A stretch of DNA of 49,018 nt, from positions 1 through 49,018 of the forward strand of contig WRHI01000007.1 of the NCBI GenBank assembly GCA_009783315.1. Reading direction: 5' to 3'. Under the pieces are notes generated by a model. The model had not been told where the DNA came from. It saw nothing but the letters and a program-made list of their open reading frames with translations, and did not search any database. The DNA comes from Peptococcaceae bacterium. GTDB taxonomy: Bacteria; Bacillota; Desulfitobacteriia; Desulfitobacteriales; Syntrophobotulaceae. The translations under genes were made by a program, and so were the position numbers. Positions 16,997 to 24,618 of the stretch are shown one piece after another (the stretch's first letter is position 1; each line of letters begins with the position of its first letter).

Positions 16997-17076
16997 AGGG
17001 CTAGACCTCCAAGCAATTATGAGCTGCCTTTTATCGTTCCCCAATCACGAACAGGCATGCATCGTAGAGGTTGTTG

Positions 17077-17119
17077 CCCATTGTCCATTGTCCATTGTCA
17101 ATTGTCCATTGCCCATTGT
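17077..17119 (-). repeat. Heptanucleotide array (CAATGGA and variants) at the 3' end of the amylase-MalQ gene
   Basis: About six period-7 units, some variant (CAATGGG, CAATTGA). On the minus strand the array encodes the last residues (QWAMDN) and the TGA stop of the fusion gene. Confidence 0.9.
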
Positions 17120-20100
17120 CTCCCCGCTCGCCGCGCCGTCTCTCCCAGCCACGCCCAAGCGGCGTCCGTCAGATCGTCCTCACCCATTCTCCACAACCAA
17201 TTCCCCTGATCTGTTCCCGGCACATTCATCCGCGCCCGGTTATCCAGCGACAACACATCCTGCACCGGCAAAATCACCAGTCCCGCCCGGGAAGCATACA
17301 TTTGCTCCATCAATTCCCTGCACGCAGCCTTTCTGTCCAGATCCCGCTCCGTTCCCCCGCTCGCCCTTCTCTCACGCCCATCATCCCACATCCCACATCC
17401 CATATCCCACATATCGCATCCCACAAGCGTTTCATTATCATGAGTCCCGGAAAAAAACACCGTATCCTCATCAACATCCATATTGCCGTTCTCAAACTGC
17501 AGCACCCTCATCCCCGGCACATCAACTATCTCACGCAGAATCTTAACCTCCGGCGTCCAGAACCCCAGATCCTCCGCCACGATCCCCCGCGCCTGCTCAC
17601 CAAGCTCCCGTCGCAGCACCTCAAAGAAATAACGTCCCGGTCCCTTTACCCACTGGCCTTCCCGCGCGTCCTCCCGCTCCGCCGGAATCTCCCAATAAGC
17701 CGCAAACCCGCGGAAATGATCCAACCGCACAAAATCAAACAGATCAAAAGCACGCCTCATCCGGGCGCACCACCAAGAAAAGCCCTCGCAGGCCATAACA
17801 TCCCAGCGATAAAGAGGATTCCCCCATCGCTGCCCATCCTCCGCGAAAGCATCAGGCGGCACCCCTGCCACCAACGAGGGCACCCCATCCCGCAGCCAGA
17901 ACATATCCTGATGGGCCCAACAATCCGCGCTATCCGCCGCCACATAAAAAGGCACATCCCCCATAATCAGCAGCCCACGTTTGTTGGCATAACCGCGCAA
18001 CTCATCAAACTGTTTATTTAAAACAAACTGCTCAAAAAAAACATACTCCATCTCCGTCCTCAACCGCTGCCGCGCCGCCGCCAACGCCGCCTCATCCCGC
18101 CCACGCAACCCGGCATCATCCCAAAGCTGCCAAGACAAGTCGCCAGACTCAGCCTTAAGAGCGCAAAACAAAGCATAATCCTCCAGCCAAAAAGCATTGC
18201 GCTCACAAAACGCGTCATACTGACCCCTCAAAGCCAGGCTCCGCGCCGTCCGCAAACCTTCCCCACGCAACCACACAGCAAAAACCTGGCGCAGCAGGCG
18301 CCCCTTCAGCTCTTCCGCGCCCGCATAATCAATCCTCGACCCCATCTCCACCTCATCACCATAACCCACACCGGCGCCGGCAGAACTCCTAACAGCGCCC
18401 CCCGCCAACAGTTCAACCACCTCCGGCAGCAGTTCAGCCAACTCCGGAAAAGCCTCCCTCAAAACATCCACCAACTTCACCGGATCAACATAAAGGGGGC
18501 TCATCGCCATAGCTCCCGCGCTCTGGTAAGGCGACCAAACCTGGTCAAGTGGATTAAGCGGCAGCATCTGCCAAACCTTCTGACCCGCGTTCACCAGCAC
18601 ATCGACAAACTCATAAGCCGAAGTCCCAAAATCCCCCACGCCATAGCGCGAAGGCAGCGAAACAACCGGCAGCAGCACCCCCGCGGCCCGGGCCAACCAA
18701 GGCCGTTCAGGAGAAACCCGCGCGGGCCGGAACAAAAGCACACGGGCCGAAAGAGCCGGCAGGTCAACCCGATAAGGCGCCTCACAATCCCACTCCCCAC
18801 GCTCCCCTGCATCCAGATCAACAACCTCCCACCGATCCGCCTCCGCCCAATTCAGAGGCCGCGCCCAACAAGGCTGACGCCAAACAGAAGGCCCAGCAGC
18901 CAACTCCCCATTTCCCTCTTCCCTTTCCGCCTCACCCCTTGAACCGCTCACCACTCTATAACTCAAGTCCGCTTCTGAACGATTAATCAACACCAACACA
19001 CGCTCACAGCCCTCAACCTCTATGTTCTCACCATCTCTGACATTAAGCCCTGTCTGTCCCCGTCTCCCATCCCTCTCACTCTCACATTCCCCATCCCTCT
19101 CACTCTCACATTCCCCATCCCTCATCCCTCTCCCCACTAACCCCTGACCCCTGACCCCTGACCCCTGACCCCTGACCCCTAACCCCTCTGTGGCTTCCGC
19201 CGCCTCGAGGGCCCAAGGGCGCTCAAGACGCCAGAAACCACAGACATCTTCTGCCCAAACCAGCCGCATATCCCCGTCCCGCAATACCCCGTACTCCCGC
19301 CGCAGCGACATCCAACGCCTAAAAAAGTGCACAATCGACTCATCCTCACGCCCCCAAGGAAACGGCCCGCGGTTATAAGGATCCCGGAACCCCTCCATAC
19401 CCGCCTCATCGCCATAATAAACGCAAGGCACGCCCGGAAACGCCATCTGCCACAACACCAGCATATTCAAGCGTTTCACAGCCAACGCCCGCGATCCCGC
19501 CGGCATCTGATAAACCCGCTTCTCCTCCTCAGACAACCCCTCTGCCGCCGGCGGATCCCCTAACAACGTCAAAACACGCTCCACATCATGGCTCCCCAAC
19601 AAATTCATCGCCGCGAAAAAATTCTCCCGCGGATAATTCTCATACAAACTCATCAACCCCGCGCAAAGATCATACGCGGAAATCCGATAAACCATAAAAT
19701 CCAGCAACAATGCACGAAAAGGATAATTCATCGTCCCATGCAGCTCATCCCCGGCAAAATATTGCCTCAGCTCACCATAACTCACCTTATGAGACGCATC
19801 CTCCCAAACCTCTCCAATCAGCACACCCTCCGGATCCTCCTCCGTCATGGCCGCCCGGACATACCGGATAAACGCATCCGGCAGCTCATCCGCCACATCC
19901 AGCCGCCAACCGCGAATCCCCCGCCGCATCCAAGTCCGGATCACACTCTCCGGCCCCCGACAAATAAAATCCAGATAAGAAGGCTCCATCTCATGAACAT
20001 TGGGCAAATCACTGATCCCCCACCAACTGGAAAAAACATCAGGAAACCGCTCGAAACAATACCAGCCGGCGTAAGGCGACTGCTCCGACTGGTACGCCCC

Positions 20101-21078
20101 CAGTTCCGGATAAAACCCAGGCCTGTTAAAATAACGGCTATCCGCACCCGTATGGCTAAACACCCCATCCAAAACAAGCGAAATCCCCTGCTCCCGCGCC
20201 TCCTCCACCAAAACACGCAAACTCTCCTCATCACCAAACAGCGGATCCACCTTCAGATAGTCTCCCGTATCATACTTATGATTGCTGGCCGCCTCAAAAA
20301 TCGGATTCAAATAAAGAATCGACACCCCCAACCCACGCAAATAACTAAGCTTCTGCCGCACACCGTCCAAATTGCCGCCAAAAAACAACCACCGATCAAT
20401 CCCGCCATTCTCATTACGCACATAAAAAGGCGCGTCATGCCAATCCTGATGAAAAAGCGCCTGCCGCCCCGGTAAAGCATGCTGCCAGCGCGGCCCGCCG
20501 CCCCTGTGAAATCGATCCACAAAAATCTGATACATAATACCCTGTTTATACCAAGCCGGCGCCACGTTGTCCCGGCCAAAAACCGTGATCTGATAGGCCG
20601 GCGGTTCCTCGAAATGAAAGCAGTCGCCAAAAGACCCGCAGTCAACAGACCCCGCCATAGCCCCAATTCCGCCCAGCCGCCGTCCGTTGCTGCCGTAATA
20701 AAAACGCACACCCTTCAACGAAGCCCACACCTCATCGGTCCAATCCGCAGCCGCAGCCGCAACCGCAGCCGTCGCCGTTGCTTCCTCAACAACAAAATAA
20801 TACCAGAACAAACACGCCTGATCCGGCGCGACAAACGAACCCTCCCAGAAGACATAATCGCCCGCCGCCGGTCCAAAAACCTCTGCCTCTGCCCCAGCCG
20901 CTGCTCCCGGCGACCGCATCAACACCAGCTCCTCGCAGCCCTCCATCCAGAGACGAACCCAAACCCGAACCGGAGCCGCGGCACGCACCGCCAAACGCAA
21001 AGTCACTGTCTCACCGCATGGAACCGCCCCAAAAGGTTCACGAAAGAAACCGTTATGTGAATCATGAAAAATATCCAC
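17098..21078 (-). CDS. Alpha-amylase/neopullulanase-like GH13 fused to 4-alpha-glucanotransferase GH77 (MalQ)
   Basis: 1326 aa with two enzymes in one chain. Residues ~1-115 are an N-terminal beta domain. The GH13 barrel has nucleophile Asp394 (GWRLDVADE), acid/base Glu423 (LIGEVWEDA) and Asp498 (LLGSHDVER). Its C-terminal domain contains a low-complexity insert at about 630-690. From about residue 795 the MalQ domain has VWQMLPLNP, MGDVPFYVA, VRLDHFRGF (nucleophile), IVAEDLG (acid/base) and FSGTHDNET. Together they would hydrolyse and disproportionate maltodextrins and glycogen products. GTG 21078 has GGAGAGG upstream and shares one base with the apgM stop (TAGTG), so translation is coupled. 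Three different repeat arrays lie within the coding region. Confidence 0.93.
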   Translation of the reverse strand: MDIFHDSHNGFFREPFGAVPCGETVTLRLAVRAAAPVRVWVRLWMEGCEELVLMRSPGAAAGAEAEVFGPAAGDYVFWEGSFVAPDQACLFWYYFVVEEATATAAVAAAAADWTDEVWASLKGVRFYYGSNGRRLGGIGAMAGSVDCGSFGDCFHFEEPPAYQITVFGRDNVAPAWYKQGIMYQIFVDRFHRGGGPRWQHALPGRQALFHQDWHDAPFYVRNENGGIDRWLFFGGNLDGVRQKLSYLRGLGVSILYLNPIFEAASNHKYDTGDYLKVDPLFGDEESLRVLVEEAREQGISLVLDGVFSHTGADSRYFNRPGFYPELGAYQSEQSPYAGWYCFERFPDVFSSWWGISDLPNVHEMEPSYLDFICRGPESVIRTWMRRGIRGWRLDVADELPDAFIRYVRAAMTEEDPEGVLIGEVWEDASHKVSYGELRQYFAGDELHGTMNYPFRALLLDFMVYRISAYDLCAGLMSLYENYPRENFFAAMNLLGSHDVERVLTLLGDPPAAEGLSEEEKRVYQMPAGSRALAVKRLNMLVLWQMAFPGVPCVYYGDEAGMEGFRDPYNRGPFPWGREDESIVHFFRRWMSLRREYGVLRDGDMRLVWAEDVCGFWRLERPWALEAAEATEGLGVRGQGSGVRGQGLVGRGMRDGECESERDGECESERDGRRGQTGLNVRDGENIEVEGCERVLVLINRSEADLSYRVVSGSRGEAEREEGNGELAAGPSVWRQPCWARPLNWAEADRWEVVDLDAGERGEWDCEAPYRVDLPALSARVLLFRPARVSPERPWLARAAGVLLPVVSLPSRYGVGDFGTSAYEFVDVLVNAGQKVWQMLPLNPLDQVWSPYQSAGAMAMSPLYVDPVKLVDVLREAFPELAELLPEVVELLAGGAVRSSAGAGVGYGDEVEMGSRIDYAGAEELKGRLLRQVFAVWLRGEGLRTARSLALRGQYDAFCERNAFWLEDYALFCALKAESGDLSWQLWDDAGLRGRDEAALAAARQRLRTEMEYVFFEQFVLNKQFDELRGYANKRGLLIMGDVPFYVAADSADCWAHQDMFWLRDGVPSLVAGVPPDAFAEDGQRWGNPLYRWDVMACEGFSWWCARMRRAFDLFDFVRLDHFRGFAAYWEIPAEREDAREGQWVKGPGRYFFEVLRRELGEQARGIVAEDLGFWTPEVKILREIVDVPGMRVLQFENGNMDVDEDTVFFSGTHDNETLVGCDMWDMGCGMWDDGRERRASGGTERDLDRKAACRELMEQMYASRAGLVILPVQDVLSLDNRARMNVPGTDQGNWLWRMGEDDLTDAAWAWLGETARRAGRQWAMDN
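17382..17423 (+). repeat. Heptanucleotide array, CATCCCA x~6, inside the MalQ domain
   Basis: Units at 17382, 17389, 17396, 17403 (TATCCCA), 17410 (variant) and 17417. Their translation gives CDMWDMGCGMWDDG immediately after the catalytic motif THDNET, where MalQ proteins normally lack such a stretch. Confidence 0.9.
19066..19113 (+). repeat. 24-bp direct repeat x2 in the amylase-MalQ gene
   Basis: Two perfect 24-bp units plus a partial third. They encode the octapeptide repeat GECESERD. Unlike the neighbouring heptamer array, this period keeps the frame. Confidence 0.85.
19141..19189 (+). repeat. Heptanucleotide array, CCCCTGA x5 plus two variant units, in coding sequence
   Basis: Five perfect CCCCTGA units (19141-19175), then CCCCTAA and CCCCTCT. 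Read on the minus strand across three frames they encode GVRGQGS/GVRGQGL. Seven is not a multiple of three, so gain or loss of one unit would shift the frame between the GH13 and GH77 halves. Confidence 0.92.
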
Positions 21079-23079: not shown

Positions 23080-24618
23080 CTAACTGTCAACTGTCAACTG
23101 ATAAAGCTCCACATACTTCTGGGCCGAAGAATCCCAAAGAAAATCTGTCGCCAGCGCGTTCCGGAAAAGCTTCCGCCAAGCCCTCGTATCCCGATAAACC
23201 CCCACCGCTCGTTTAATGGTCTCCAACATCTCATGAGCGTTATAATTGGCAAAGCTAAACCCGTTCCCCTCACCGGAAAAATGATTATAGGACTGAACCG
23301 AATCCTTCAGTCCTCCCGTCTCCCGCACAATGGGAATAGTTCCATACCTCATAGCGATCATCTGAGAAATTCCGCATGGTTCATACCGGGAAGGCATTAA
23401 CAAGATATCCGCCGCGGCATAGATGCGATGGGCCAACTCCACATTATAACCCAGATACACCGAAAACTTGCCCGGATACATGGCCGCCATCGCCGAAAAA
23501 AACTGCTCATAATGCCACTCACCCGACCCCAGCACCACCAAATGCAGGTCTTCCTGCATTAAGTCATGAAAAACACGCAACACCAGATCAATCCCTTTAT
23601 TCTCAACAAAACGCGTCACAATAGCCAAGAGCGGTATCCGCTCCCTCTCAGGCATCTCCCTCTCGGGCATCTCCCTCTCAGGCGCCTCCCGCTCTTGCTC
23701 AGACGACGCTCGCGGCAGATTCCGCGGCGACAGATCCTGAATCGGCAGCCCCTGAGCCGGCAACCCCAACAAATCCGACAACTTAGCCTTATTCTCCTCT
23801 TTCAGCGCCGGCGAATTCCTGAACCGGGTAAAAATATGCGGATCCTTAACCGGATCATAAAGATCCCCGTCAATCCCGTTCAGAATCCCGCTCAGTTTGT
23901 ACGCGTTAGCCCGCAACACCCCATCCAGCCTCTCACCAAAATAAGGATCCATTATCTCATGAGCGTATGAGGGGCTCACTGTCGTCACCCGCTGGGCATA
24001 ATACACAGCGCCCTTCATCAAGTTAACCGCGTCGTAAAACTCAATTTTCTCCCATAAATCCGGCGTCATCGTCAACCCCGCCACATTCCCCACAACAGAC
24101 ATAGGAAAAACGCCCTGATACTTCACATTATGAATCGTGAAAACCGACTTCACATCGGTATAAAAGGGATCATACTGATACCCGTTATTCAACAAAATCG
24201 GGATCAAAGCTGTCTGCCAATCATGACAATGAATCACATCCGGCACAAACCCCAACCCCGGCAAAGCGTCCATCACAGCCCGGCAGAAAAACGTGAAACG
24301 TTCTGCCTCGTCATAATATCCATAGATGCCGTCCCGGCAAAAATAATAATCATTCTCAAAGAAATAAAAAGTCACACCATCGCGCAACAGCGCAAAAACA
24401 GCGCAATACTGACTTCGCCACCCCACAGCTACCTTCAATTCAAAAACAAGTTCGGCCTTCTCCAACAAAGACTGCGGAATCGCGCTGTACTTAGGCATCG
24501 CCACACGAACATCCACGCCCTTCTCCGCCAGCGCCTTGGGCAAGCTGCCGCCAATTTCCCCCAATCCTCCGGACGTCACAAAAGGCGCGGCCTCCGCGAT
24601 CGCAAAAAGCACCTTCAT
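23080..24618 (-). CDS. glgA: Glycogen synthase (ADP-glucose)
   Basis: GT5 enzyme that extends alpha-1,4-glucan from ADP-glucose; 512 aa. Present: the N-terminal Rossmann domain (VDVRVAMPKYS), FTIHNVKYQGVF, VTTVSPSYAHEI, GILNGID, and C-terminal domain motifs MPSRYEPCGISQ and VRETGGLKDSV. The usual Lys of the K-x-G-G-L motif (Lys15 in E. coli) is Thr15 here (FVTSGGLGE). An insertion at about 286-327 contains five-residue repeats (PEREM) before the C-terminal domain. ATG 24618 has GGGGGG about 10 nt upstream. Terminal codons QLTVDS and the TAG stop are read from a CAGTTGA repeat. Last gene of the glg operon. Confidence 0.95.
   Translation of the reverse strand: MKVLFAIAEAAPFVTSGGLGEIGGSLPKALAEKGVDVRVAMPKYSAIPQSLLEKAELVFELKVAVGWRSQYCAVFALLRDGVTFYFFENDYYFCRDGIYGYYDEAERFTFFCRAVMDALPGLGFVPDVIHCHDWQTALIPILLNNGYQYDPFYTDVKSVFTIHNVKYQGVFPMSVVGNVAGLTMTPDLWEKIEFYDAVNLMKGAVYYAQRVTTVSPSYAHEIMDPYFGERLDGVLRANAYKLSGILNGIDGDLYDPVKDPHIFTRFRNSPALKEENKAKLSDLLGLPAQGLPIQDLSPRNLPRASSEQEREAPEREMPEREMPERERIPLLAIVTRFVENKGIDLVLRVFHDLMQEDLHLVVLGSGEWHYEQFFSAMAAMYPGKFSVYLGYNVELAHRIYAAADILLMPSRYEPCGISQMIAMRYGTIPIVRETGGLKDSVQSYNHFSGEGNGFSFANYNAHEMLETIKRAVGVYRDTRAWRKLFRNALATDFLWDSSAQKYVELYQLTVDS
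23082..23100 (+). repeat. Heptanucleotide repeat, AACTGTC x2.7, at the glgA 3' end
   Basis: AACTGTC at 23082 and 23089, then a partial unit. It encodes the C-terminus of GlgA and overlaps its stop codon. Confidence 0.85.

Follow-up and report, generated by a model that had tools for sequence, protein, structure and literature searches.

A seven-base repeat array in frame within a GH13–GH77 fusion gene, probably a tolerated copy of a species-specific heptamer

A gene for a GH13–GH77 fusion protein in a Peptococcaceae bacterium contains an array of seven-base units. We consider it probable that this array is an in-frame insertion or expansion of a species-specific heptamer repeat which is tolerated in a turn of domain C of the GH13 part. 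The window (the whole stretch of DNA that was analysed, 49 018 nucleotides) belongs to a draft assembly of 3.0 Mb in 151 contigs. The two nearest public records are the Peptococcaceae bacterium isolates Nt197P3bin37 and Nt197P3bin79, which we take to be termite-gut metagenome bins. The features discussed are compiled in Table 1.

Table 1. Features of the fusion gene, its repeats and related loci. Positions are those of the window unless a locus label (L) precedes them.
Feature	Position	Strand	Basis or remark
GH13–GH77 fusion gene	17098–21078	−	likely GTG start at 21078; 1326 codons; open frame reaches 21171
GH13 catalytic domain (PF00128)	19369–20529	−	domain match
GH77 domain (PF02446)	17170–18672	−	domain match
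Heptamer array GGGGTTA-(GGGGTCA)5-GGGGTTA, 7 GGGGTYA units	19138–19186	− (coding)	sequence, TRF
Predicted expanded turn of GH13 domain C, ~75 aa	19003–19227	−	alignment and model
24-bp repeat, 2.8 copies, frame-neutral	19066–19132	−	TRF
Second, degenerate heptamer array (CCCACAT type), in frame within GH77 part	17377–17425	−	TRF
TTGTCCA heptamer array across fusion-gene stop codon	17074–17120	.	TRF
Heptamer-coded peptides in frame in very long open frames, e.g. LSIVPCPLSIVPCP, INNCQLSTVNCQL	L061 2577–2595, L061 11356–11373, L119 7336–7352		
Candidate MITE-like element copies	L147 390–660, L154 2230–2560, L157 2480–2780, L149 2490–2860, L159 1540–1880		

The fusion gene and the position of the array

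The encoded protein of 1326 residues joins a GH13 part to a GH77 4-α-glucanotransferase, and the likely GTG start of its gene overlaps by one base with the stop of the phosphoglycerate mutase gene that lies upstream. Genes for glycogen synthase, two ADP-glucose-pyrophosphorylase-like proteins, glycogen phosphorylase and a branching-enzyme-like protein are found in the neighbourhood; the fusion enzyme belongs to glycogen metabolism. A second GH77 domain was not detected in the assembly (completeness 93.7%). The GH13–GH77 fusion is old, being present throughout the order in proteins about 1150–1300 residues long. Its architecture matches that of NF011083 (bifunctional GlgX/4-α-glucanotransferase), the curated cut-off of which was missed (1170.9 bits vs 1322). 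The solved structures closest to the GH13 part are those of maltodextrin glucosidase, neopullulanase and maltogenic amylase.

On the plus strand, five perfect CCCCTGA units (19141–19175) are followed by CCCCTAA. The end units of the array are one-base variants of GGGGTCA, and TRF assigns to the whole a period of 7, 6.9 copies and 97% matches. The array is in frame, with the reading frame open across it and over all 1326 codons. To this extent, and with regard to the frame-neutral 24-bp repeat next to it, the sequence-only reading described the locus correctly. The stretch with the degenerate CCCACAT-type array differs in the congeners.

The same reading had stated that gain or loss of one unit breaks the frame and removes GH77, and that three units are needed to regain it. 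Both statements are borne out by computation. Among 0–8 units the frame is kept at 2, 5 and 8 only, while 0, 1, 3, 4, 6 or 7 units lead to a stop at 668–690 codons (counted from 21171). The resulting product of about 73–76 kDa would contain neither GH77 nor most of domain C. A separate restart of GH77 at the in-frame ATG just past the array (codon 683) was considered and rejected: the Shine–Dalgarno energy is −7.8, compared with −9.5 for the 5% background of this G-rich gene, and no ribosome-binding signal above the gene's own background is seen at this codon.

The array had been assigned to the linker between GH13 and GH77, which has to be corrected. As judged from alignment and model, it is located in a β-hairpin turn of domain C, the C-terminal β domain of the GH13 part, ahead of the linker. 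An alignment of more than 20 homologues places it in the turn between ‘..GFxR’ and ‘..IxVLxNR’, which is 4–6 residues long in most relatives, 10 and 21 residues in two congeners and about 75 residues here. The sequence match to the best solved structure stops just ahead of the insertion. In the AlphaFold model of residues 32–835, strands are predicted at 612–618 and 693–699 with a pLDDT of ~30 between them, and the turn of about 75 residues is probably a disordered peptide. The mean pLDDT of the model is 63 and its pTM 0.65, so that only the local placement was taken from it.

Heptamer arrays across the genome

Heptamer arrays are not confined to the fusion gene. In a 449-kb sample of this genome we counted 59 arrays with at least three copies, versus three in 190 kb and two in 200 kb of the congeners. 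The genome has roughly 100 heptamer arrays per Mb, about ten times the density in the congeners. No other period from 4 to 24 is enriched, each being represented by at most seven arrays in the same 449 kb. First-order Markov shuffles of this sample gave no array for periods 6–9, three-copy heptamers included, and a chance origin of the array was discarded. The census of arrays covers 843 kb of the 3.0 Mb and was complemented by whole-genome pattern searches.

The dominant heptamer of the genome is GTCCATT, of which three consecutive units give 347 overlapping matches here, whereas 24 other family genomes have none. For GGGGTYA, the corresponding pattern of three units has 54 overlapping matches here, none in the congeners and two (at one locus) in another member of the family; the four-unit pattern was found in this genome only, among 398 genomes drawn from the phylum. 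The array had at first seemed unique to the fusion gene, as three exact GGGGTCA units matched one locus, but this was dropped when a search tolerating T or C uncovered the wider family. This family comprises about 20 perfect loci, and some 50 places are found by similarity search: one heptamer at many loci, as in the dispersed families of Nostoc and Xanthomonas. The other perfect loci inspected, with 3–13 units, are intergenic or situated at the ends of genes. The fusion-gene array is absent from both congeners. To judge from repeat similarity, it may derive from the dispersed family rather than have a local origin.

Many intergenic GGGGTYA copies adjoin a hairpin of the form GGGATGGTAA-CTATCAGC-nnn-GCTGATAG-TTGGGAATT. 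These ends are arranged in facing pairs at a distance of about 150–170 bp, with inward-facing GGGGTYA-type heptamers outside both, and thus the whole forms a long inverted repeat. The perfect hairpin is present in 21 copies in this genome and in none of 24 other family genomes, and no Rfam match was obtained for the element. From its sequence, it looks like a candidate miniature inverted-repeat element. The CTATCAGC hairpin is absent at the fusion-gene array; the heptamers alone are common to both.

Reading frame of arrays inside genes and alternative explanations

The reading frame on both sides of each array in the 843 kb was called by a codon model. Its training set consisted of 276 long ORFs, and in calibration the correct frame scored best in 96% of cases. 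The threshold for intragenic arrays was set post hoc, since a stricter first threshold had classed none as intragenic. With this setting, five of the 88 arrays with three or more copies are clearly intragenic, whereas at least 56% of the sequence is coding (P about 6e-24). The arrays are thus strongly depleted inside genes and enriched outside them, as described for Nostoc and Xanthomonas. All five intragenic arrays are in frame. When arrays of at least 2.4 copies are included, this holds for 10 of 10 clearly intragenic cases, a small sample. If frames were random, the probability that all are in frame would be between (1/3)^5 and (1/3)^10, with two genes supplying two arrays each. Several of the in-gene arrays encode repeat peptides in long proteins, LSIVPCPLSIVPCP and INNCQLSTVNCQL among them.

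These data bear on the proposal of the sequence-only reading that the array is a phase-variable switch, in which slipping by one or two units would turn the complete GH13–GH77 protein into a truncated GH13 protein and back. The frame arithmetic and the loss of GH77 behind this proposal stand, as unit changes that are not in threes end the protein prematurely. Heptamers can indeed be phase-variable, for example in hmw1A of Haemophilus influenzae (PMC8262952), and unit number varies among the GGGGTYA loci of this genome. The function as a switch is nevertheless unlikely in our estimation. The congeners are without the array, and the array belongs to a genome-wide heptamer family rather than being special to the fusion gene. 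It has only five pure units compared with 13–24 in the hmw1A constructs. It lies mid-gene, in an unconserved turn of a glycogen enzyme, and not at the start of a gene for a surface structure. The absence of off-frame arrays inside genes (none of 10) is, given the small sample, evidence against the switch rather than its exclusion, and the assembly reveals only the commonest state of each array.

Selection on the GH77 part points in the same direction. Between species, GH77 evolves faster than GH13, with a dN ratio of 2.3–2.5 in pairs with the array and 2.3 in the pair without it (dS being near saturation). Because pairs with and without the array do not differ in this respect, nothing indicates that constraint on GH77 was relaxed in this lineage, and relaxed selection was rejected as an explanation. 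A more elaborate version, in which cells would swap between fused GH13–GH77 and truncated GH13, perhaps with GH77 re-initiated at codon 683, as a form of bet-hedging with storage polysaccharide, appears very improbable.

A second alternative ascribes a role to a G-quadruplex in the mRNA or the coding strand, which would slow the passage of ribosomes or of polymerase from one enzyme domain to the other. The coding strand contains seven G4 tracts with 3-nt loops (G4Hunter 2.18, a sequence motif only), and quadruplex formation in vitro is described for comparable G-rich heptamers of Xanthomonas and Nostoc (PMC4692102). However, the array is not kept in the congeners, and GTCCATT, the dominant heptamer of this genome, is devoid of G-tracts. 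We therefore regard such a role as quite improbable. That the array or its unit number is an assembly artefact is hardly credible: repeats can collapse or be miscounted in a draft as fragmented as this one, but the array is short (49 bp), the frame is open on either side of it, and many similar arrays are found at other loci with unique flanks.

The array is one of hundreds of repeats in this genome and would lie in a floppy, dispensable loop, and hence looks like the result of tolerated repeat spread and not like an on/off switch. In-frame insertion or expansion probably proceeded as follows. A heptanucleotide repeat family spread through one species, and a GGGGTYA array would have entered, or arisen within, the surface turn of GH13 domain C, where it was presumably lengthened by slippage. 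It was probably retained since the frame stayed open at this length and the turn, as we infer, tolerates the extra peptide. Unit gains and losses that change the frame must happen from time to time, and their product would end in domain C and lack GH77; such variants are presumably removed by selection rather than used. If this explanation is correct, the gene would be a warning that a frame-shifting repeat should not be taken for a switch on the evidence of a single genome, and would exemplify a heptamer burst limited to one species, with in-frame copies tolerated in enzyme loops. As two congeners are without the burst, the reasons why certain bacteria amplify units of seven bases in particular could be studied in close relatives.

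Comparison with known repeat families

As a type of repeat, the array is comparable to the heptamers of Nostoc, Xanthomonas and Beggiatoaceae, whereas in its presumed effect on the protein it recalls the Rickettsia palindromic elements. The G-rich heptamers GGGGA(T/C)T of Nostoc and GGGAATC of Xanthomonas are enriched outside genes (Rehm et al., 2015; PMC4692102). Features in common with these are 7-bp G-rich units, dispersal through the genome, a location mostly outside genes and often near stop codons, and a variable unit number; the T/C variant is shared by Nostoc GGGGA(T/C)T and GGGGTYA. Differences are the GGGGTYA unit itself, the phylum and the copy inside the coding frame of the fusion gene, and the quadruplex is here a sequence prediction only.

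Direct repeats of the heptamer TAACTGA are found in Beggiatoaceae, cyanobacteria and Bacteroidetes (MacGregor, 2015; PMC4679880). That paper cites work in which period 7 is reported to be generally preferred and a connection with polymerase slippage is proposed. As in the present genome, one heptamer is abundant in a genome-specific manner, sporadic among relatives and mainly intergenic. The TAACTGA repeats, however, lie just before start codons and have stops on one strand, whereas GGGGTCA is open in every frame on the coding strand.

The Rickettsia palindromic elements (Ogata et al., 2000, 2002), to the extent that they are treated in a review (PMC10969869), likewise represent repeat DNA in frame within metabolic genes, in their case unrelated ones, and apparently tolerated by the protein. 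As described there, they are palindromes of about 150 bp, whereas the in-gene copy here is a tandem heptamer without a hairpin core; a palindromic element whose core falls within the gene was not found at the fusion-gene array. The hmw1A repeats also consist of tandem 7-bp units (PMC8262952). They differ in that they lie at a promoter, number 13–24 units in constructs, belong to an adhesin gene and have been shown by experiment to vary, while the present array is known from one assembly.

Further repeats were observed in the window. Heptamer arrays at 23082–23100 and 17074–17120 extend across the 3′ ends of two genes, those for glycogen synthase and for the GH13–GH77 fusion, and the terminal residues of both are thus repeat-coded. 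The glycogen synthase gene also contains a 15-bp in-frame repeat, EREMPEREMPERE (23641–23694), located in what looks like an insertion that separates the two halves of the gene. Two GTCCATT arrays of 9.6 and 12.7 units (1333–1399 and 1569–1653) form an inverted pair about 170 bp apart which would fold into a long hairpin, and inverted pairing of GTCCATT arrays was seen again at other loci.
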